Source: Aneurinibacillus sp.
Lineage (GTDB): Bacteria > Bacillota > UBA5301 > DYFA01
Length of the DNA stretch: 64,000 nucleotides
Assembly: GCA_020725425.1 (NCBI GenBank)
Contig: DYFA01000054.1
Span: 43,664 to 107,663 of the forward strand
Reading direction: 5' to 3'
Shown here: in pieces, positions 49,206 to 64,000 of the stretch
Layout of the letters: every line of letters starts with the position of its first letter
How positions within the stretch are numbered: position 1 is the stretch's first letter
Notes under the pieces: model-generated
Database searches by the model: none
Told to the model about the DNA's origin: nothing
What the model saw: the letters and a program-made list of their open reading frames with translations, nothing else
Translations under genes and position numbers: made by a program

Positions 49206-50060
49206 TTAGGCAGCAGGGATCTGAGTATCGGTTTCGCCCTGGAGGTACCACCTCCTCTCAAACTCCAAAGGACTGAGATAACCCAAAGTTGAGTGTCGGC
49301 GGTGACGGTTGTAGAAGCCCTCGATGTACGCGAAGACGGCTGACCGTAGAGACTGCCGAGTAGGCCACTGGCGCCGGTCGAGCAGTTCCGTCTGCAGGGT
49401 GGCGAAGAAACTCTCCGCCACCGCATTGTCGAGAGCATCGCCTACGCTTCCCATGGAGGCGTAGATGCCGGGGCTCTGCAGAGTGTTTGCAAAGACCAAG
49501 GCCGTGTACTGGGCCCCATGATCGAAATGATGGATAACCCCCGCAGAAGGCTTGCGTCTCCAGATGGCCATGTTCACGGCCTCAACTGCGAGCTCAGCCA
49601 CCGGACGCTCACCCATGGCCCAGCCAACAACCATGCGTGAGAAGGCGTCGATGACTGCCGCCAGGTAGAGCTTGCCTTCGCCTGTCCCATGTTCAGTCAT
49701 GTCCGCCACCCACAACCGGTTAGGGGCTGGCGCCGTGAACTGACGTTGAACCAGATCTGGCGCCAGGTCATGTTTGGAGTCGCGGCGGGTGAAGCCGCGG
49801 TTTCGCCGCCGACGAACACCCGTCAGTCCGGCCTCGCGCATAAGTCGAGCGACCCGCTTCTTGGAGCACTTGACACCCCGGCCGATGGTCAACTCCGCGT
49901 GGACCCTGGGGGCTCCATAGGTGCCCTTGCTCTTTTGGTGTATCTCCAGGATCAGCTTCATCAGTTCAGCATCCCTCATGGCATGGACTGACAAATCCCT
50001 GGTGCGCCACGCATAGTAGCCGTTGGTGGAGACGCCCAGTACTCGGCACATCGCGGCCAC
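49206..50060 (-). CDS. IS3-family transposase OrfB (DDE integrase)
   Basis: NRLWVADMTEHGTGEGKLYLAAVIDAFSRMVVGW, HHFDHGAQYTALVFANTL, DALDNAVAESFFATLQTELLDR. Confidence 0.94.
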   Translation of the reverse strand: MAAMCRVLGVSTNGYYAWRTRDLSVHAMRDAELMKLILEIHQKSKGTYGAPRVHAELTIGRGVKCSKKRVARLMREAGLTGVRRRRNRGFTRRDSKHDLAPDLVQRQFTAPAPNRLWVADMTEHGTGEGKLYLAAVIDAFSRMVVGWAMGERPVAELAVEAVNMAIWRRKPSAGVIHHFDHGAQYTALVFANTLQSPGIYASMGSVGDALDNAVAESFFATLQTELLDRRQWPTRQSLRSAVFAYIEGFYNRHRRHSTLGYLSPLEFERRWYLQGETDTQIPAA

Positions 50061-50101
50061 GCGGTGAGCGGCCTTCTGGTGCTCGACAAACCGGAACGCC
50101 T

Positions 50102-50392
50102 CTACCGGGTCCGGTCGGTCTCCTTGGCAAAGAAGGCCGCGGCTTTTTTTAGGATGTCGCGCTCCTCGCGCAGAATCCGGTTCTCACGCCGCAACCGCTG
50201 CAGTTCCTCTCGCTCGGAGGTCGTTAGTCCCTCGCGTTTCCCAGAATCGATCTCATCCTGTTGGACCCACCTACGAAGCGTATCGTCGCATATCCCCAGG
50301 TCTTGAGCAATCTGTGCCACTGACTTGCCGCTACTACGGACCAGTTGAACGGCCTCGGCCCTGAACTCCGGCGGATGCGGTTTCCCCGGCAT
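50102..50392 (-). CDS. IS3-family transposase OrfA (HTH)
   Basis: MPGKPHPPEFRAEAVQLVRSSGKSVAQIAQDLGICDDTLRRWV; A7 slippery run at 50144-50150. Confidence 0.93.
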   Translation of the reverse strand: MPGKPHPPEFRAEAVQLVRSSGKSVAQIAQDLGICDDTLRRWVQQDEIDSGKREGLTTSEREELQRLRRENRILREERDILKKAAAFFAKETDRTR

Positions 50393-51344: not shown

Positions 51345-54068
51345 TCACGCCCTTTCCGTTTCTTCCCGGACGACTCCGAGGTCCGGGTCGTCACGCACCG
51401 AAAATGTCTTGCCCTGCCGCTCCCTTCCCCGCCAGAATCCACCGTGTAACCGCAGGACGGTAACGCCCGGCAGCCACGCAGGAGCTTCTTTGGGCGGTTC
51501 AAAACCACAGTCGGCCTCCACGTCACGCAACCACCACTTAGGGACATTCACTGTCTCAAAGAAGATCCGTTTAAGCGTGTCGCGGCCGGGGGGGCGGCTG
51601 GCCGTCAATTCCGTTCTGAAGGCCTCCCCTTCGAGCAACAGCAACTGGCGGGTTTCATCGCCCACCCTGGTTTTGGCGGTAAAGTAGCTTGAGGCTTCGC
51701 CGTCTTCGTCGTCGAAGGGCCCCCCGGGCATGCGGGCCAGCTTGAAGGCTGCCTCGTAAGGAGGTGGGATAAGGTATTTCTTCGCTTCGTCTTTCTCCCT
51801 CTCGACCTGTGTCCTCAGATCCTCCCAAGCCGCGGCGAGATCCTCTGACGCGATCGTATCTTCACCTTTGACCGTAGGAGAATCATCATAGACAGCCTCA
51901 ACCAATGGGCGGATATCTTCGGGAAGATTCAACTCTTCAACACCGGCCAACGCCAAGAGAGTTTTGAGCAAAACGAAGCGGTGGTACACACGTTCGGTAG
52001 CCCCGAAGACGGGCCGGCCCGGCCCGGGCAGAAGGAGGTGCAAACGAGCTTCCGGGCCGGTCGGCCGGCTCGGCCGGAGGTGGCGGTGAAGCCGTCCCAC
52101 TCTTTGCAGGAGGAGGTCGACCGGGGCAAACTCGGTGAACATCTCATCAAAGTCAAGGTCCAGGCTCTGCTCGACCACCTGAGTGGCTATGAGAACAGCC
52201 CGACCTGGCCTCTCCGTCCGCTCCGCGTCACCCGGGTCGAGCAGGCTCCGCTTGTCAAAGAGTCTGAGCGCTTCCTCCTCGATTTCCTGGCGCCGCCCGG
52301 CACGAAACCTGGCATGGAAGAGAAGAAGTCGGGGTGGCTGTGGAAAGTCTGCGAAGATCGCCTGCAGTTCCCGGTAGATCGCCTGCGCTGAATCGACCGT
52401 GTTGGCGATCACGCAGAGGCAACCGCCGTCCCTCGCCTGGTCGGCCACCAATCGGGCTAAACCGGTCGGGTCGCCCAGCAAGCCCGGATGCTTTACCAGG
52501 CGCACGTTCTGGGTTTTGGCAGACCCGGTGACCGCCTTTTCTCGCACTTCCCCGCCCCAACCGACGTAGGTGAGCAAGGGATATGGCGCGGTCTCCCCGT
52601 CGCGGGCGGGGTTGAGCGCCGCGCCGGGGGCATATGCTTCGATCAGGGCCTTTCGGCGAGACTGAGGCAGGGTGGCGGAGAGCAATACCACAGGTATCTG
52701 CAGATCGCGACACCATCGCAGGAGAAGGGTTAGGATCTCGGACATGTAGGCGTCGTAGGCGTGTACTTCGTCGATGACCAGGACCTTCCCGGCCAAGCCG
52801 AAGAGCCGCAGGAAGCCATGCTTGACGTGGAGTACGCTCATCAAGGCTTGATCGATCGTGCCAACGCCGTTGGACGCCAGAAGGCTGCGCTTCTTGGGTC
52901 GGAACCATTCCAGTGCCGAAGTCTGCTCCTGCCCGCTCCCAGACGAAAGTTCGGGCGGGCATTGGGGAGAGGCCTCGTCCAGCAGCCAGGCCATCCCGTG
53001 AACCAGCCTCACCCCGTGAGCCGCGGGCGGATCATGCGCTGCGAGAAACGCTTTGAACCGCCCATACATTTGATTGCTGGTAGCGGCGGTGGGCAGTGCC
53101 ACGTAGATGCCACCAGCTGCCGCCGGCCTCATCCATTGAGTGGCCAGGTAGATGGCCGCCTCGGTCTTCCCTTCCCCCATCGGGGCCTCAACGATGGCCA
53201 AGCCCGGCTTGAGGTTCTCCCCGCAAAGTTCTTCACAGGCGCTCTGGACCGGCCGGGGGTTCCGGATTTCCGGCCAGACTGCACCGAAGCGCATGGGAGC
53301 CGACCACGGCACATCCTTGGTTAAACCGAGGCTGGCCACCGCGTTTTCAGCCCTCTGGCCGGAAAGGGCAACGTAGGAGGCAAAACCTATATCCCCGTCC
53401 TTGAAAGGAAAGAGTTCCGGGTTGGAGGCAATCCAGTCGCTGAAGACAATCAGGCCGGAGAGCAGGATACCCGCCGCGCTGTGGTCCCTGAAGCGGGCCT
53501 CCCAGGAGGAAGGTGCGAAGACTTGTCGAAGAACGGCCTCCAATTCAGAACGAAGAGGCTCCCACTGGGCTTTGAGCGAAGCTACCTCGTTCGTTGGATC
53601 GTCCACTCGAAAATCGCCATGATGGCCTCGGAGAGCCGCGGCCACTGTGTGTGCCGAAGGCCTGTCCCAGCCAACCGCATCGATCAGATGGTTCATTGCC
53701 CACTGGCCGCTCATAGCCTCGTGGCGATACTTCGGGTCTTCCACAATGCAACAGAGCCCGTCGCTCTCAAGAGGCGCAACCAAGTCAGGCGGACCCTTTC
53801 CTTGAAAGTCAGATCGGCATTTGCCCAGGTCATGGCAGGCCACCAAGTATGCCAGCCAGCATCGAGCCTGATCCGGTGAGCATCCCGCCGCCTCGCAGAA
53901 CTTTGGCACTATGCTGCGAAAAGCTGATGTCTGGAGCAAGACCATCGCCACGGAGCCGGCGTCGATCAAGTGGCAAACCAAGGGATGGAAAGGGTCGGTC
54001 TTGGCCCAAAGCTTGAAAACCGTCGTCTCAAGTCGCCGGGACAACATCGTCACCTCGTTCTCGGTCAA
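51345..54068 (-). CDS. cas3: CRISPR-associated HD nuclease/helicase Cas3
   Basis: HD motif CHDLGKCRSDFQGKGP, Walker A APMGEGKTEAAI, DEVH VIDEVHAYDAYM, LLSATLP, VVEQSLDLDFDEMFTEFAPVDLLLQRVGRLHRH. Confidence 0.94.
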   Translation of the reverse strand: MTENEVTMLSRRLETTVFKLWAKTDPFHPLVCHLIDAGSVAMVLLQTSAFRSIVPKFCEAAGCSPDQARCWLAYLVACHDLGKCRSDFQGKGPPDLVAPLESDGLCCIVEDPKYRHEAMSGQWAMNHLIDAVGWDRPSAHTVAAALRGHHGDFRVDDPTNEVASLKAQWEPLRSELEAVLRQVFAPSSWEARFRDHSAAGILLSGLIVFSDWIASNPELFPFKDGDIGFASYVALSGQRAENAVASLGLTKDVPWSAPMRFGAVWPEIRNPRPVQSACEELCGENLKPGLAIVEAPMGEGKTEAAIYLATQWMRPAAAGGIYVALPTAATSNQMYGRFKAFLAAHDPPAAHGVRLVHGMAWLLDEASPQCPPELSSGSGQEQTSALEWFRPKKRSLLASNGVGTIDQALMSVLHVKHGFLRLFGLAGKVLVIDEVHAYDAYMSEILTLLLRWCRDLQIPVVLLSATLPQSRRKALIEAYAPGAALNPARDGETAPYPLLTYVGWGGEVREKAVTGSAKTQNVRLVKHPGLLGDPTGLARLVADQARDGGCLCVIANTVDSAQAIYRELQAIFADFPQPPRLLLFHARFRAGRRQEIEEEALRLFDKRSLLDPGDAERTERPGRAVLIATQVVEQSLDLDFDEMFTEFAPVDLLLQRVGRLHRHLRPSRPTGPEARLHLLLPGPGRPVFGATERVYHRFVLLKTLLALAGVEELNLPEDIRPLVEAVYDDSPTVKGEDTIASEDLAAAWEDLRTQVEREKDEAKKYLIPPPYEAAFKLARMPGGPFDDEDGEASSYFTAKTRVGDETRQLLLLEGEAFRTELTASRPPGRDTLKRIFFETVNVPKWWLRDVEADCGFEPPKEAPAWLPGVTVLRLHGGFWRGRERQGKTFSVRDDPDLGVVREETERA

Positions 54069-54160: not shown

Positions 54161-55306
54161 TCAGGCGGAGTGCACCTCTTGCGAAAGGTTACGGAAGTCA
54201 CCCTGGTCATCGACGAGCAACCGGGGATTCCGCTCCAGTTCAGCGTAGCAGGCGTCGTGCGTCCCCCAGATTCCGTTCACATACAGGGCGTCCTCCGCCT
54301 TCTCGTATCTCCAGGCGACCCGAAGCTGGATGCTGTTCCGCTCCGGCCCTTGCCACAGACCATAGCACAGCTTTAGTCCATCGAACATGGCGAAACCCTT
54401 GTCCCTCTCGTGGTGAAGTTCGGGGTCCTGTGGATTCACCTGGACTTTCTTGACGAGGGTCCGCAACTGCTTCAACAGCCACTTCCGCTCCGACCAGTAA
54501 TGCCGGAGGCTCTTCCTGGCTTGGTCCGAGAGGAGGAACCACGTGCCGAAGAGCGATGCGTAGCGCTCCTGGCTGAGCAGGAAGTGCCCGAAGGCGTTGA
54601 GTTCCAAGACCTCTCCCGCCCGCTCGAAGAAGTATGGGTGCGCCTCCACCGCCGCCTGCTCGTCCTCGCTCAAGCTTCCCCACCCGACCACTCCTTCCAA
54701 CTTCAAGCGGCGCAGGAGCGGAGCGTACGCCTCCAGGAAGGCCTGGTCAATCTGGAGGGGAACCGCTGGTATCTCCTGCAGCACCTGGTTCAGCCCGTGG
54801 AGGTAGAGCGACGGGAAGCCGTAGAAGGAGCCGGCGATGTAGCCGAAGGAAGTCATCACCTTGTAACCGCCCAGCGGGACGAAGGCCGTCGGCAGGCCGG
54901 CGAGGCGCAACTCATGCAGCTTAGCCCCAAGGTCGCGCAGGAAGTCGGCCAGAGCAGCCTTCAGCTTTTGGCGGTCGGTGACGTCGAAGCCCCGGACCGG
55001 CACGCCGTTCACCGCCGCGTTGAACTCCTCAGCCAGCACTTTCTCTAAAACGCGGAAGGACTGCCGGCCCACCGGCGTATCGGTGTAGAAGAGTGTGAGC
55101 ACCGGCCTCGCCGCCAGTCGACCTTCCTTCCGCAGCGCCCAAAGCACGGAGTATTCGGCACTCACCTTCTCCGGCTCCGAGGCGGCGGCAACGGCGGAGG
55201 GCGGCGGCGCGTCCTTCCTCCCGAAGACGTTGCCCTGGTCCAAAACGGAGATTCCAGTAGTGAAGACGATCTGTTGAAACGGTGTCCGGTGACTCACGGT
55301 GCTCAC
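54161..55306 (-). CDS. CARF-domain CRISPR ancillary protein (APE2256-like), probable CARF-RelE fusion
   Basis: N-terminal FTTGISVLDQ...FVPLGGYKVMTSFGYIAGSFYGFPSLYLH (APE2256/TIGR02619-type CARF); C-terminal RVAWRYEKAEDALYVNGIWGTHDACYAEL resembles a RelE toxin strand-turn-strand core. Confidence 0.75.
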   Translation of the reverse strand: MSTVSHRTPFQQIVFTTGISVLDQGNVFGRKDAPPPSAVAAASEPEKVSAEYSVLWALRKEGRLAARPVLTLFYTDTPVGRQSFRVLEKVLAEEFNAAVNGVPVRGFDVTDRQKLKAALADFLRDLGAKLHELRLAGLPTAFVPLGGYKVMTSFGYIAGSFYGFPSLYLHGLNQVLQEIPAVPLQIDQAFLEAYAPLLRRLKLEGVVGWGSLSEDEQAAVEAHPYFFERAGEVLELNAFGHFLLSQERYASLFGTWFLLSDQARKSLRHYWSERKWLLKQLRTLVKKVQVNPQDPELHHERDKGFAMFDGLKLCYGLWQGPERNSIQLRVAWRYEKAEDALYVNGIWGTHDACYAELERNPRLLVDDQGDFRNLSQEVHSA

Positions 55307-55309
55307 TCC

Positions 55310-56425
55310 CTACTTCGGCCACAAGAACTGGATCTTGATCTCGCCTCCAGAACTCGGGCTGATACTGTGCACCTTCAACGTGACTTTCTCGCCGGGCTTG
55401 CGGTCGGCAGGCACCTCCCGGGTGTTGGCGATCGGCCCGGCAATCTCCCGTCCGTCGAAGGTGATCTTGGCCTTCCACCCACCCTTGTTCGTCCGCTCTT
55501 CGAGCAGGGTCGCCCGAACCTCCTGCCCCGAGACGAGCCCGACCGGGCTCGGGGATAAGACCGGCGCGTCCGTCCGCCGGGGTGGGCGCCAGTCCGGGCC
55601 CTTGATCCGCCCGTAACCGGCGCTTGTCTTTCCACCGATGCCCCAGTTCTCCAGCGCTTCGTGCAGAAGCCTCAAGCCGAGACCAGCCCATTTCTCCCCC
55701 TCGGGCCCTTCGACGTCGCATCCCACCGCGAGCAGGAAGCGCCCTTGGATGGAAAGGAAAGGCACTGGCACTGGTTCGTCACCGTCACCGGGCGGCTTGC
55801 CCTCAATGCCGGCGTAGTAGTCTTTGTGATGAACGGTGATGACGTCCAGCGCCAAAGCGCCCGTCGGACGGCCGTTCGCCGGGTCGGGCACAAGGGAGTC
55901 AGGAGTCACCCAGGCATCGTAGAAGAGCAGGTGGCCGCTGTCCTCCGTGGTGCCGAACATGGTCTGGAAGCACTCTCCCGGCGGGCTTTGTTTGTCCCCG
56001 AGGTGGCGGCTGAAGCGAGGGTCCCCCTTTCCCCAGACCTGGTCGGAGTAATGAGCGGCCAACCCCTTCAGGGCGGTCCCGGGAAAGTAGGGCGTGCCGT
56101 AGGGGTGCTGCAAGATAAGACCTGCTTCAAGGGGCGACTCGGAACCTAAGCCGAAGACCGCCCGCCCGTCAATCTCCACCTCCTGGGTTGGAACCCCAGA
56201 TCCCAAGCTGCTTTTCCACCGCTCGTAGGCCCGGGCGTACAGCGGGTAGGTTGCCTGGCAGGCTCCGATAGCTTCCTCCAGCAGTTGCTGCTTCGGCGCC
56301 GCGCTCTTTTCGTCGTGTCTGGACAGATACTTCCGGAGCAGGAGGTCTGCGTTGGCTGTCCGGCGGCCGGCTGGGCGGGCCGTAGGGTCCGGGAGGCAGG
56401 CGCGGCGCGCTCTTACGTCGCTCAT
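55310..56425 (-). CDS. cmr6: Type III-B RAMP protein Cmr6 with C-terminal extension
   Basis: LEAGLILQHPYGTPYFPGTALKGLAAHYS; RAMP Gly-rich loop; adjacent cmr genes. Confidence 0.9.
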   Translation of the reverse strand: MSDVRARRACLPDPTARPAGRRTANADLLLRKYLSRHDEKSAAPKQQLLEEAIGACQATYPLYARAYERWKSSLGSGVPTQEVEIDGRAVFGLGSESPLEAGLILQHPYGTPYFPGTALKGLAAHYSDQVWGKGDPRFSRHLGDKQSPPGECFQTMFGTTEDSGHLLFYDAWVTPDSLVPDPANGRPTGALALDVITVHHKDYYAGIEGKPPGDGDEPVPVPFLSIQGRFLLAVGCDVEGPEGEKWAGLGLRLLHEALENWGIGGKTSAGYGRIKGPDWRPPRRTDAPVLSPSPVGLVSGQEVRATLLEERTNKGGWKAKITFDGREIAGPIANTREVPADRKPGEKVTLKVHSISPSSGGEIKIQFLWPK

Positions 56426-56805
56426 GGTTCTTCGCCCTCCTGGTTCTGTTCGTCATCCTTCAGCAGCGCCTCGGCGTACCGTTTGAGCCAAGAGGAGGCA
56501 GCCAGCACTTCCCGGCTCAGTCTAAGGTAGGAAGCGGCGCTCGCGGTTCGACTCAACTCCAAGAGCTCTTCCGCCGACAGACTCAGGCCCAGCGTGTACG
56601 CCAGATCCTCGGCGTATCCTCGGCGCTTCTTCGCCAGCGCGAACGCCAGCGCCTGGCAGAGCCCGCTGTTGTGGACGAGGGCCGGGAAGCCCTTCGCAAA
56701 CCGCAGGTATTCGGCTTCGCTCGTCTTCTCGTCCCGGCGGTGCGCCGCCTGAACCCTCTGGACAGCTTGCGCCGCCCGGCAAGACCATGACTGCTGCCTG
56801 GTCAT
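56422..56805 (-). CDS. cmr5: Type III-B small subunit Cmr5
   Basis: AAQAVQRVQAAHRRDEKTSEAEYLRFAKGFPALVHNSGLCQALAFALAK. Confidence 0.9.
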   Translation of the reverse strand: MTRQQSWSCRAAQAVQRVQAAHRRDEKTSEAEYLRFAKGFPALVHNSGLCQALAFALAKKRRGYAEDLAYTLGLSLSAEELLELSRTASAASYLRLSREVLAASSWLKRYAEALLKDDEQNQEGEEP

Positions 56806-56806
56806 G

Positions 56807-57691
56807 TCAGACCTCCTTCCCGCTGAACAGGCACCGGACCCGTCCCCGCCCGGTCGTCGCCTTGCCGCCGACCTGGCAAATCAGGGGGCGGCCGCATGCT
56901 TTGTCCAGAACCTCCTGCGCGCTGAACCCCTCGGCCCATACCCGGTCGCACCAAACCAGGCCGGCCAGCACCGTCTCCGGCGGGAGGCTCTCCTCGTACC
57001 ACAGGGCCCCGCCCGCCACGGTCTTCGTCTTATCGTCGATGCGTATCCTGGCCTGAACTTCGGTGCCTGTCTCGGAAAGGAAGTCGAACGTCGAGTCGGA
57101 CAGGATCGCGAATCGGGGGAGAAGCATCTTCTGGTCCTGCGGGCGGTCGGGGAAGATCTGCCCCGCCAGGAACCTGGCCCACGCTGAGGCGGACGGGTCC
57201 TCTGCGGTCGCGAAGTCTAGGTCTTCGAGAAACATCCGCCCGTCCTCGCTGATCGCTTCGGCCTCCGCCACCAGGGCCCGCTCCCCCGCCGGCGCGTCCG
57301 GCACAGAAGGAACCCCAGGCACCTCGGCTTGTTCGAGGTCCCTGGCCAAGCGCTGCAAGGCCAGCGACGATGTGGCGTAGACGAAGGTGCCGAAGTAGCT
57401 CCGGACTGGCAGCAGGACCAGGCGGGCGTCGGTCAACACCAAGGCACCCGCCTGGTCGTCTTCCGTATTCTCGGCAGCGCGCCCGAATGCGGCGTCGACG
57501 AACTGCTTGTTGCCCTCGTCCCGCTCGAACATATCGCGCAGGACGCCTTTCATGGCTGTCCCCGGAACCAGCGGCCAGCCGGTCACCTTCTCGCGCATCA
57601 CCGGCAAGTCCACGAATGCCGCTCCCCGCCCTGCACCTACGTGCAAGGGGGTGAGGGCATGGACCCAGTAGACCCGCGTGTTGTCGCTCAT
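56807..57691 (-). CDS. cmr4: Type III-B RAMP protein Cmr4
   Basis: VYWVHALTPLHVGAGRGAAFVDLPVMREKVTGWPLVPGTAMKGVLRDMF. Confidence 0.92.
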   Translation of the reverse strand: MSDNTRVYWVHALTPLHVGAGRGAAFVDLPVMREKVTGWPLVPGTAMKGVLRDMFERDEGNKQFVDAAFGRAAENTEDDQAGALVLTDARLVLLPVRSYFGTFVYATSSLALQRLARDLEQAEVPGVPSVPDAPAGERALVAEAEAISEDGRMFLEDLDFATAEDPSASAWARFLAGQIFPDRPQDQKMLLPRFAILSDSTFDFLSETGTEVQARIRIDDKTKTVAGGALWYEESLPPETVLAGLVWCDRVWAEGFSAQEVLDKACGRPLICQVGGKATTGRGRVRCLFSGKEV

Positions 57692-57693
57692 CT

Positions 57694-58887
57694 TCAGTTC
57701 CTCCCCTCTCCCGAACGCCTTTCCCACACGCCGTAAGTCGCCAGCCCGAAGCCGTCCCGCCGGTCCTGTTCCTCGTCTGAGACCGGATGCAGCCACCAAT
57801 CCGCCAGAGCCGAGCCGCTCCCGGCCCCGTCGCACAGTTCGAAGAAGTAGACCGCCCCGGCCGGGACAAGCCGCCTGATGGGTTTGGGCCCGCGCCGGCC
57901 CTTTTCCAGATTCCAGCCGGAGAGTGGGCGCCACCGGTCCACACACGCCCCTTTAAGCCGCACCCGGACCCCCGAGCCGGGCAAAGTGCCTTCTAGCGAG
58001 TCTCGGTCGAGCCAGCCGGGTCGCCAGCCCCCGGCAAAGATCGCCGGGGTGGCCAACCCAAGCCGCACTCCGCCGGCCCGCGCCAGGGCTTTCCGAATTT
58101 CCTCGGGGCAGCTCCAAGCGCTTTCGTCTGGGCTACCTTCCAGCTTCGCCAGCCGCCGCTCGCCGCCGAACGGGTGAAGCTCCGCCAGCCCCGCCAGCAG
58201 CGAGGCTGCCTCCGAGTCACCCGCCGCCTCCGCGCGAGCCACCGCGTTCACGACGCGAGTCCGACCATCTGGTCGCTCCAGGGGGATATCGTTGAAAACG
58301 AGCGTCTGGGTGGTGTACAGCTTGCCGTCCTCCGCCCGCCCCGTCTGCGGATCGATTTGGACGTGGACCCGCTCCTCTTTGGGCAGCAAGCCATGGCCGT
58401 CCGCCGGAGCGAACCCCTCCGGGTCGTCCGTCGCCAGCCAGCGGGCGTAGTCCTGCACCCGCCAAAACGACGGACTCGGCGCCGGCTTGGCGTTCGTGGT
58501 GAATTCCATCGGCCAAAGCCCGGGCGGAAGGTCGACTCCCTCGCCGTCGAGCAGCGGTCGCGGCCGCAGCGCCAAGTGAAGCTGCCGCTCGCCCTCCCGG
58601 TAGGCGAAAAAGTCCCGGGGCGCGGGGAGGTACAGCACCTCGGCCACCTCGAGCAGCGGACCGGCCACTGCGATCCGCTTGACCCGCGCGACCAACTGAG
58701 GGTCGTCGAACGGGCGCTTCGCCTCGCCCGCCAGTGCTTTACCGAGGACCGTCCGCACCGCGCCGGCCACCACCGACGGATAGATCCAGTCGAGCGACCG
58801 CGCCCGGTTGCCGCCTTCACCCGCCCCGAAGGGCCGGCCGTCCCGGGCGACCACCGGGTCGTGTGGCTTGATCCTGACTAAGCTCAC
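57694..58887 (-). CDS. cmr3: Type III-B RAMP protein Cmr3
   Basis: RIKPHDPVVARDGRPFGAGEGGNRARSLDWIYPSVVAGAVRTVLG. Confidence 0.92.
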   Translation of the reverse strand: MSLVRIKPHDPVVARDGRPFGAGEGGNRARSLDWIYPSVVAGAVRTVLGKALAGEAKRPFDDPQLVARVKRIAVAGPLLEVAEVLYLPAPRDFFAYREGERQLHLALRPRPLLDGEGVDLPPGLWPMEFTTNAKPAPSPSFWRVQDYARWLATDDPEGFAPADGHGLLPKEERVHVQIDPQTGRAEDGKLYTTQTLVFNDIPLERPDGRTRVVNAVARAEAAGDSEAASLLAGLAELHPFGGERRLAKLEGSPDESAWSCPEEIRKALARAGGVRLGLATPAIFAGGWRPGWLDRDSLEGTLPGSGVRVRLKGACVDRWRPLSGWNLEKGRRGPKPIRRLVPAGAVYFFELCDGAGSGSALADWWLHPVSDEEQDRRDGFGLATYGVWERRSGEGRN

Positions 58888-60704
58888 GCTGGCTCACCCC
58901 TTACCTCCAAGGCCGAGGACCCGCGTGACCGTTCCTCGACCCTTGGCAACTCCACCGCCAGACGGCGAGCGACCATTACTTCGTCTGCCAGGCGCGTGAG
59001 GTCGGCCGGAACCTTGACCGTTTCGAGCAGCGCCTTCAGCGTCTCCTTGGCCCCCGAGTCTTTCGCCTGTTTCCTGCGGAGCAGCCGCAGGGCGTCCGCC
59101 TGCAATAGCTCTCTGAGCTGCGACTCAGGCCAGTCAGTTATCTCCCACCTCTCGTACTCCCGGGCCAAGGCCCTGAGGTCGTAGGCCGCCTTGTCGGGCA
59201 GCGCCCCGACCCGGAACAGGTCTATCCACTGCTGCAAGCGGGCATCGAGCGCGTCCGCCAGGTTCTTCCCCCATTGGGCGCGGGCCTTGATCACCGAGCC
59301 GCCGCGGGTCCAGAAGCTGACCGCCAAGCCGTCCCGCTCATCGGCCGCTCCGGCCCCTTCCTTCGCGTTCCGTTCAGCCTCCTTGGCCCTCGTCAAGAGG
59401 TCCTCCAGCGGCTCCAAGCAGTGGCCTACGGACACGCCCGCCGAGAGGGTCACCTCGGGCGCCACCTCCCCCACGAGCCGTCCGAACTCGTCGTGGAGCC
59501 TGCGGGCGGCTAGAAGGCAGGTGTCGAGCGGGAGGAAGGCTAGGACATCATCTCCCCCCGAATAGACCAGTGAGCCGTGGCACTCGGCGACAATAGCCCG
59601 CGCCGCCGCGGCGAACCTGGCCAACTGGCGAGACAGGCGCCGGTGTTCCTCGGGCGAACGCAAGTTTGAGATGGCACTTCCCATCCGGTCGCCGTCGGCT
59701 TTCAGAATGGCCAGGTAAGGTGAGGGCTGACCAACCTTCTCTTTCTGAGAGCGCAGCAACGCGTCGATCTCGCCTAAGGCCGGCAGGTGGTCGGCCAAGT
59801 CGGCCTCCTTCATCATCACCCGCCGGCGGGACTCGAAGAGGACTTCGCACTCCCGGGGAAAGTCCCGGAAGACCGGGTCGTCGATCGGGTCAGCGAAGTC
59901 GGGGTGGCACTTTTGCTCTACCTTCCGCAGGAGCTCCCGGCCGCCCTGTGTCCCCCACAGCCGTCTGATCCAGACGTCCGCCGCCACCCGGCTGACCGAG
60001 ACGAAGCGGACCCCGCCCTCCCGGGCGCCGCCCACCGCCCTTCTCTTGATGAGCCCGATCGCGTCGAGTTGCTCGCCCTGTTTCAGGCGCAGCTCGCGGC
60101 GCAGGCGCGCCCCCTGCGCCGTCTTGTCCTGCACCGCTTCGTTCAGCACCGTCTCCCGGGCGCCGTCCAGCGACGACTTGGGCACCTTGGCGCGTCCCTT
60201 TACCGGGAGAAAATCCCGGAGCGCCTTGCGGCCGGCGAGCAATCGTTCCACTCTGGTTCGGGCTGCTATGTAGTCGTTCCCCATAGGCACCCAGGCGGCG
60301 TAGAACTCGAGGACGTCTTTAAGCTGCTCCTCCCAAACGTCCAACCGGATGGCGAGCGTAGCCGTAGAGCCGATGTTGCGCAGCGCGTCGGCCGCAAACC
60401 CCTTCCAACGCTCCTTCGCCGCCTCTTGGGCCGACCTCGCCAGTTCCTCTGGCGCCAACCCTTCGGGCACCTGGGCGAGAAGCTTGTTCGCGACGTTGAG
60501 CTGTGAGCCTGGGGACAGCTCCTCTTCTGGCCTCTCCGGCGCGGGGAAGATCAACGTGGCGCCGCTCCGGTGAAGGCTGAGGGCAGCCGCCTTGCTGATC
60601 TCAGACAACAGGTGCGACCCGAACCAGAGGTCGTGGGTCCGCCGGGCGGCGGCGATGAAGTCTTGTACCGGCCCGAGGGCGACGGACAAGAGATAGCCGC
60701 TCAT
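58884..60704 (-). CDS. cas10: Type III-B Cas10/Cmr2, GGDD cyclase, no evident N-terminal HD domain
   Basis: Starts at GPVQDFIAAARRTHDLWFGSHLLSEISKAAA; palm motif GSLVYSGGDDVLAFLPL; only 606 aa. Confidence 0.92.
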   Translation of the reverse strand: MSGYLLSVALGPVQDFIAAARRTHDLWFGSHLLSEISKAAALSLHRSGATLIFPAPERPEEELSPGSQLNVANKLLAQVPEGLAPEELARSAQEAAKERWKGFAADALRNIGSTATLAIRLDVWEEQLKDVLEFYAAWVPMGNDYIAARTRVERLLAGRKALRDFLPVKGRAKVPKSSLDGARETVLNEAVQDKTAQGARLRRELRLKQGEQLDAIGLIKRRAVGGAREGGVRFVSVSRVAADVWIRRLWGTQGGRELLRKVEQKCHPDFADPIDDPVFRDFPRECEVLFESRRRVMMKEADLADHLPALGEIDALLRSQKEKVGQPSPYLAILKADGDRMGSAISNLRSPEEHRRLSRQLARFAAAARAIVAECHGSLVYSGGDDVLAFLPLDTCLLAARRLHDEFGRLVGEVAPEVTLSAGVSVGHCLEPLEDLLTRAKEAERNAKEGAGAADERDGLAVSFWTRGGSVIKARAQWGKNLADALDARLQQWIDLFRVGALPDKAAYDLRALAREYERWEITDWPESQLRELLQADALRLLRRKQAKDSGAKETLKALLETVKVPADLTRLADEVMVARRLAVELPRVEERSRGSSALEVRGEPA

Positions 60705-61984
60705 CGGAACCCTCCTTCCTGCCGCGCGAAGTTCAAGAAAGCCTCCACCGCCGAACCCTTGGGCGAGAAGCGCAAGGGCGACTCGGACCCTTTCAGGTCA
60801 GGTCTGAGGATGGTGTCGCGGCGGAACGGGTCTTTCGGAAGTGCTGCCATGACCTGCGGATTCTTGGACTCCAACCGCACGGCCTTCACCGGTTCAACCT
60901 TTAGCGGGACGATCACTTGGGCGGCCCCGCCCCCTCCTACGGCCAGCGCTTTCAGAATGAGCGGGCTGGCCATCCGCTGTCCATCCGCTGGGTATAGTGT
61001 CAGGTCTTGAGGTTCAGGCCACCGGCCGCTTACTTCCTTGAAGTGAAAGACGATGGGCAGGCCAAACTCGGCTCGCGGAAAGCCCAATTTCAGCTCGGTG
61101 ACTGAGCGCCGCAAGGCGCGGTTATTGAGATAGCGCAGACTATTCGCTTCAGGCCAACGCGAGCGGCCCGGGAAATCGCCGCTTCGCTTGGCAGGATCTC
61201 GGCCGACTCCCGGTCCTTGCCTGAACTTTTGGAGTAGCTCTACCACATGCTGCCAAGCCCTAAGAGGGTCCTGGGTTTCAACATCCTTCTCCTTCACCAG
61301 CAGCCGTTGAGGCAGGGTTGGCCAAGAACGTGGTTCGTCCGGGAGCCTGAGCCCGTACCTTTTGAGGCAAGACGCATACCAGTCATGTACCTTGGCGCCT
61401 TGCGGCGGAGAGAACTGCTCGCAGAAGAGCGATCCACACCCCCGTCGTGTCCGGGCGCCCAACCCGCCGAAGTTGACCCATGCCCACAGTGCCGGTTCGA
61501 TCTCGTTCTCGAGCTTCGCCTGGTCTAGGCAGGTCACCGTGAGGTCGAACGCCGCGGACCAGGTTGCGATCGCCGGTTCGCGAGGCCCGTCCGGGCTTCT
61601 CCTGGAATCACCCCTGAAGGGAAAAAGCGCGTAAGCGGGTTGCTGCCACTGCGCTTGGCTTCCGACCTCCACCACCCGCACACGTACCTGCGTCGGGCTG
61701 GCCTCCCCCGCCGAGCCGAAGATGCCTGTCTCCCTATCGCGCAACTCCGCCACATCCTCGCACGCCGCCCCGCGCGACGCCCGCCACCAGAACCTGAGCT
61801 GCCCGCGGATGCTGCTTCCCCTGATCAGGGTCACCGGATCGTTCTTCCCAGGTACCGTGCCCCCGCCGAAGAGCGGTGTCACCACCCGGATACGGTAGGT
61901 CCGGCTGAACCCTCCGCCCCGGCCGATCCGGGACGGCGGATCTGGGCAGGAGATGATCGTGCGTCTTTCCTCCACCCACAGCAC
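60701..61984 (-). CDS. cmr1: Type III-B RAMP protein Cmr1
   Basis: YRIRVVTPLFGGG...IRGSSIRGQLRFWWRASRG, ETGIFGSAGEASPTQVRVRV. Confidence 0.93.
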   Translation of the reverse strand: MLWVEERRTIISCPDPPSRIGRGGGFSRTYRIRVVTPLFGGGTVPGKNDPVTLIRGSSIRGQLRFWWRASRGAACEDVAELRDRETGIFGSAGEASPTQVRVRVVEVGSQAQWQQPAYALFPFRGDSRRSPDGPREPAIATWSAAFDLTVTCLDQAKLENEIEPALWAWVNFGGLGARTRRGCGSLFCEQFSPPQGAKVHDWYASCLKRYGLRLPDEPRSWPTLPQRLLVKEKDVETQDPLRAWQHVVELLQKFRQGPGVGRDPAKRSGDFPGRSRWPEANSLRYLNNRALRRSVTELKLGFPRAEFGLPIVFHFKEVSGRWPEPQDLTLYPADGQRMASPLILKALAVGGGGAAQVIVPLKVEPVKAVRLESKNPQVMAALPKDPFRRDTILRPDLKGSESPLRFSPKGSAVEAFLNFARQEGGFR

Positions 61985-63394: not shown

Positions 63395-63880
63395 AGCCGA
63401 CCTTCGCGGGTCCCGGCCGCCGACTCCGGTGCGAGCTGTGAATTCCGGCAGAATCGAACACCCATTCCGGCCATTTCGGATACCTTCAAGTTGAGCTTGT
63501 GTGCGTTATGCACCAGCCGGTCCAGGATCGCATCCGCCACAGAGGGGTCCGCGATGGTGGCATGCCAGTCTCCTCTGGGCAGTTGGTTGCCACCGCCATC
63601 GAGCGGTTCTGGTAGCGGTCGTCCATCACTTCAAGGAGATCGCGGACTTCCCCCGCTCCGAGGGGACAGAGTCCCCAATCGTCCAGGAGCAGGAGATCCG
63701 TCTTGGCGAGCTTAGTCATGAGCCCGGGATAAGAGCCGTCGGCCTTACCAGGCCCAGGTCCCCGATCAGCCGGGGGAGACGATAGTAGCGGGCGGTGAAC
63801 CCCTGGCGGATGGCGGCGCTCGCTAAAGCACAGATGTCGTCGGGTCGGTAGCTGCAACAAGGGAAACCCCTTCGCATGAC
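63395..63880 (-). pseudogene. IstB-like (IS21-family) ATP-binding protein, frameshifted remnant
   Basis: [52 protein letters not shown] then frame break; [39 protein letters not shown] in a second frame. Confidence 0.8.
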
Positions 63881-63901: not shown

Positions 63902-63998
63902 GTCCCCATTCCTCATAGGTAGGCTACAAACTAGTGGCGAGAGCGGATATACAAGCAGGGGATTGTGGGTTTCCATTCCTCATAGGTAGGCTATAAAC
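63902..63998 (-). CRISPR. CRISPR array edge: two 30-bp repeats and one 37-nt spacer, continuing past the window
   Basis: GTCCCCATTCCTCATAGGTAGGCTACAAAC (63902-63931) and GTTTCCATTCCTCATAGGTAGGCTATAAAC (63969-63998), 27/30 identical; spacer 63932-63968. Confidence 0.88.
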
Positions 63999-64000
63999 AC

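Follow-up and report, generated by a model that had tools for sequence, protein, structure and literature searches.

The window considered in this study, a stretch of 64,000 nucleotides from Aneurinibacillus sp., encodes a protein that I take, with a probability of roughly 0.83, to be a Cami1-like CARF-wHTH-RelE effector of a type III-B (Cmr) CRISPR system, probably one that cleaves mRNA on the ribosome when activated by cyclic oligoadenylate (cOA). The initial annotation had proposed a Cami1-like CARF-RelE signalling toxin, and this is supported by the presence of CARF, wHTH and RelE parts in one chain, by the location of the gene in a cmr operon, and by Cami1 as the best match in the PDB. 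The protein is a divergent new example of the described Cami1 family, not a new kind of system. The gene and its parts are as follows.

54161 to 55306, minus strand: CARF-wHTH-RelE (Cami1-like) effector, 381 codons, likely start GTG 55297
55306 to 55310, minus strand: probable ribosome-binding site GGGAG, preceding GTG 55297
54735 to 55297, minus strand: CARF domain of the CARF7/APE2256 type, about residues 4-190, with Ser20, Glu51 and Lys149 conserved
54551 to 54734, minus strand: winged-helix (wHTH) region, about residues 191-252, from the model and from a profile match to Cami1 that runs through it
54227 to 54547, minus strand: RelE-fold domain, about residues 254-360, with His299, Arg329, Trp347 and His350 conserved in the subfamily

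The open reading frame begins, as listed, with a GTG, and the plus-strand frame from 54161 contains stops. Judged by eye, GTG 55297 is likely the true start, better than GTG 55306, with GGGAG ahead of it at 55310-55306; starting there, the protein has 378 residues. The gene lies at the end of the type III-B operon, and the gene calls on its two sides (an orphan cas3 at 51345-54068 and cmr6 at 55310-56425) bear out the initial annotation, which had placed it between cas3 and cmr6 at exactly these coordinates, with no mention of the strand. Its assignment to the cmr transcription unit is likewise consistent with what was found, since a scan of the interval from cmr6 to cas3 (weak evidence) gave no promoter-like or terminator-like site.

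The sensor at the N-terminus is of the CARF7/APE2256 type, as was first proposed and as in Cami1 and CARF-RelE effectors. The best PADLOC model is CARF7--CARF_RelE (PDLC01935; E-value 4.4e-77, residues 41-374), and both Pfam Cas_APE2256 (PF09651; E-value 1.4e-13) and TIGR02619 match above their cutoffs. These matches, with the homologues described below, set the reading frame well apart from a chance one. A winged helix is present between the CARF and RelE parts, as seen in the profile match to Cami1 8phb, which extends to its residue 256, and in the resemblance of the model to 3qyf and 7pq2. The idea that the C-terminus consists of a wHTH only was rejected, as a RelE-fold domain follows it.

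The Cami1 structures (PDB 8phb and 8phj) are those of Mogila et al. (2023, Science, doi 10.1126/science.adj2107). A sequence search of the PDB finds both through the CARF domain and winged helix only, the profile match to 8phb (E-value 1e-11) being confined to that part. In a full-length AlphaFold2 model, built from four sequences (pLDDT 70, pTM 0.56), the resemblance is wider: Cami1 chains are the four best Foldseek matches, in alignments of about 350-410 columns with E-values between 1e-11 and 1e-13. Next come two ring nucleases of CARF-wHTH type, Sso1393 (3qyf) and Sis0811 (7pq2). The TM score against Cami1 is about 0.4-0.5 and the rmsd is large, which I read as the probable effect of a different domain arrangement together with moderate model quality.

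Because no RelE domain is recognized from sequence alone, a separate model was made of the C-terminal part (residues 254-381, four-sequence alignment, pLDDT 69, pTM 0.66). In this model pLDDT is 74-84 across the strand region and the first four blocks of ten residues. The elements of the model run strand-helix-helix-strand-strand-strand-helix, which is the order found in RelE. Foldseek places E. coli RelE (4fxe) first (probability 1.00, TM 0.69 on the target), followed by HigB2, ribosome-bound RelE (4v7k), other RelE structures, YoeB, ParE and Cami1, and there is no competing fold among the 50 matches listed. The check proposed earlier, for a C-terminal fold unrelated to RelE, thus yielded, among the matches listed, only toxins of the RelE/HigB/YoeB/ParE superfamily and Cami1. 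With moderate confidence, then, the domain as modelled has the RelE fold, the best Foldseek E-value being only 0.005. The initial annotation had seen a likeness to RelE/HigB in the C-terminal ~60 residues, quoting a peptide that proves to be residues 305-357 of the translation. The likeness holds but the extent does not, as the domain spans about 105 residues (about 254-360).

Comparisons of sequence stop short of this result. A profile search of the PDB gave no match between the RelE domain and any solved RelE or the RelE part of Cami1, PDB profile searches with C-terminal alignments produced chance matches only, a Pfam scan of the effector reported the CARF family only and no RelE, and hhalign found no significant similarity between the C-terminal domain and 28 toxins of the PF05016 type taken from related genomes. 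Since sequence detects only the CARF domain and wHTH in the comparison with Cami1, the RelE identity rests on structure and on the conservation of residues. The latter was assessed in seven subfamily members: the window protein, L002, L006 (Bacillus sp. FJAT-47783), L007 (a Spirochaetes MAG), L008 (Caenibacillus), and L060 and L061 (both from one genus). His299 and Arg329 occur in 7/7 and Trp347 is common to all, while His350 occurs in six of the seven (Lys in L002). The equivalent of His299 in L007 lines up with the others when four or seven sequences are compared and is shifted in a larger alignment. A second CARF-RelE group (L021, L022, L023 and L025) has a similar layout, LRHG ... IRLVY ... 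FDHxxY, and so carries an analogous set of His..Arg..Asp-His..Tyr; the catalytic residues of Cami1 could not be aligned. These patterns of conservation point to a putative His/Arg/His RNase site in the RelE domain.

The window protein departs from its relatives in two respects. Between its first CARF strand and the motif VSAE it is shorter by about 35-45 residues, a segment that adjoins the ligand-site serine and is present in all close full-length relatives. The loss is genuine, since the flanking motifs lie too close together in the DNA to leave room for such a segment masked by a frameshift. It also has HDACY where the relatives have HDxY, His350-Asp351 and Tyr354 being separated by one residue more, so that the tyrosine of the His-Asp-x-Tyr motif may sit differently in this protein. 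It is conceivable, though I consider it doubtful, that the shortened CARF domain and the altered spacing together make the protein a Cami1 variant with a changed choice of ligand, self-limiting activity or RNase activity.

The residues of the CARF domain bear on another reading. Ser20, Glu51 and Lys149 are invariant in 24/24 CARF7 relatives in the alignment. In Sis0811 the residues aligned with Ser20 and Lys149 are Ser12 and Lys169, both of them mutated in entry 7pqa. By motif, all three residues of the window protein match Ser12, Glu70 and Lys167 of SyCsm6. In SyCsm6, Lys167 is needed for cOA degradation, and Ser12 and Glu70 are implicated in its ring-nuclease activity (PMC9676260); Cami1 itself is reported as a ring nuclease (PMC12409355; PMC12830947). 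Given such ring-nuclease-type residues, self-limiting cleavage of cOA by the CARF domain seems likely. One might go further and regard the protein as mainly a ring nuclease, an off-switch for Csx1 whose RelE domain is weak or inactive. SyCsm6, the other tested CARF-RelE protein found, cleaved cOA in vitro but did not act as an RNase on total RNA in purified form (PMC9676260), and no separate ring nuclease was recognized among the operon genes scanned. However, Cami1 works on ribosomes, and the SyCsm6 assay contained no translating ones. The window protein, moreover, has kept His299, Arg329 and His350 despite a sequence divergence of about 65% from its relatives, a pattern that suggests a RelE active site under selection. 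I consider this reading improbable. Very improbable is a RelE-fold domain directed not at A-site mRNA but at another target (DNA gyrase, as with ParE toxins, or free RNA): the fold is common to ParE gyrase inhibitors (PMC11980606), Foldseek lists ParE2 structures among the weaker matches of the domain and no sequence similarity to the RelE part of Cami1 was detected, but the strongest structural matches are RNases (RelE and HigB), the best match over the whole length is Cami1, and ParE toxins are without the RNase catalytic residues (PMC11980606), whereas the His/Arg/His set is conserved in the effector subfamily.

The Cami1-like reading, then, is the one I prefer, with the SyCsm6 result, the want of a RelE sequence match, the extra residue ahead of Tyr354 and the moderate quality of both models counting against it. 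By analogy with the mechanism of Cami1 (PMC11229360; PMC12830947), binding of a matching foreign transcript by the Cmr complex would lead the Cas10 cyclase to make cOA, most likely cA4. Once this ring had bound to the CARF domain, which is probably dimeric, the RelE domain would be released and would cut mRNA in the A site of the ribosome, so that translation in the infected cell would stop. Slow cleavage of the ring by the CARF domain would probably then switch the enzyme off. The gene, its architecture and fold, the operon context and the conserved residues are what the analysis observed; cA4 as the ligand, dimerization, capture by the ribosomal stalk, A-site cleavage and self-inactivation are carried over from the characterized relatives.

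Cami1 and the window protein share a CARF7/APE2256 CARF domain, wHTH and RelE fold in that order, an association with type III systems, and similar lengths (406 and 381 aa), but the RelE sequence of the latter is too diverged to align. The PDLC01935 sub-model matches the window protein over nearly its full length, and L002, L006, L007, L008, L060 and L061 share His299, Arg329 and Trp347 with it. I know of no characterized member of this CARF-RelE subfamily. SyCsm6 (Sll7062 of Synechocystis PCC 6803) has the same CARF7-RelE architecture and, by motif, the Ser/Glu/Lys ring-nuclease residues, and its gene adjoins a Csx1 gene; it belongs with type III-D, whereas the window protein belongs with III-B (PMC9676260). 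The Crn1-type ring nucleases Sso1393 and Sis0811 have a CARF domain and wHTH in common with the window protein, including the equivalents of Ser12 and Lys169, but they stand alone, without a RelE domain.

The effector thus adds a divergent Cami1-type protein to a III-B system in which it is accompanied by Csx1 and a Cas10 lacking HD. The pairing of Csx1 with Cami1 has already been reported, in 54 of the 135 Cami1 loci surveyed (PMC11229360), and existing knowledge of the Cami1 family is unchanged. The protein is a convenient case in which to consider how general the RelE active site and self-inactivation by ring-nuclease activity are across CARF-RelE proteins.

On the minus strand, the order of genes is csx1, cmr1, cas10, cmr3, cmr4, cmr5, cmr6, the effector gene and cas3, and the type III-B locus contains the following.

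63906 to 64000, no strand assigned: beginning of a CRISPR array with two repeats, truncated where the contig ends
62077 to 63288, minus strand: csx1 (CARF2-HEPN RNase), a second cOA effector, HEPN motif RNDLAH
60701 to 61984, minus strand: cmr1
58884 to 60704, minus strand: cas10/cmr2, with an intact GGDD cyclase motif; HD nuclease domain not found
57694 to 58887, minus strand: cmr3
56807 to 57946, minus strand: cmr4 as listed, the start probably lying further downstream, because the listed frame overlaps cmr3
56422 to 56805, minus strand: cmr5
55310 to 56425, minus strand: cmr6

The effector is therefore encoded with a cmr1-6 complex whose Cas10 keeps an intact cyclase motif (VYSGGDDVLAF), as expected of Cami1 and CARF-RelE effectors. 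As this Cas10 has GGDD and no recognizable HD domain, defence should depend on the cOA effectors and on cleavage of the target RNA. Cam3, which lies directly downstream of Cami1 in 12 III-B loci (PMC11229360), is absent from that position here, the next gene being cas3. Another contig, C30 (L103, 1-150), opens with the same CRISPR repeat as is found at the end of the window, and this contig carries type I-B cas6, cas8b, cas7, cas5 and cas3, plus cas1. Probably the III-B and I-B loci are one locus, broken in the array by assembly, and the C30 part probably supplies genes for processing and acquisition, which are missing from the III-B operon.

Homologues of the effector, with 28-41% identity, occur in other Bacillota and in one Spirochaetes MAG; a plasmid search with the window protein and a viral contig search with the Caenibacillus relative gave no relatives. 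Two phylum searches, the second centred on another genome, led to largely the same set of genomes, which puts the source of the window in the phylum of Caenibacillus. In Bacillus FJAT-47783 and Caenibacillus the gene set is like that of the window but the position of the effector gene differs, the homologue coming first, directly before csx1-cmr1-cas10-cmr3 to cmr6. Elsewhere it follows a type III-D set (L106), is flanked by a Csm5-like gene and by cas1-cas2, one RmuC-like gene also lying in the interval (L007), or is found on a contig with cas1/cas2-like genes, as judged from translated starts only (L105). The effector is therefore modular. It also decays in some hosts, since in genome G803 a close CARF-RelE relative (L062 and L064) is interrupted by stops and divided between two frames.

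The orphan cas3 downstream of the effector gene is on the minus strand and type I-E-like (Cas3e model, E-value 3e-191); a search of the genome for Cse1 (PF09481) gave nothing. Further cas3 genes lie elsewhere in this genome, one with the type I-B set on C30 and one on contig C20. Beside the orphan lies an IS3-family transposase pair (HTH_Tnp_1 and rve; 49206-50392, minus strand), and a fragment of an IS21-type IstB gene (63486-63860, minus strand; PF01695, E-value 1e-8) lies between csx1 and the CRISPR array.
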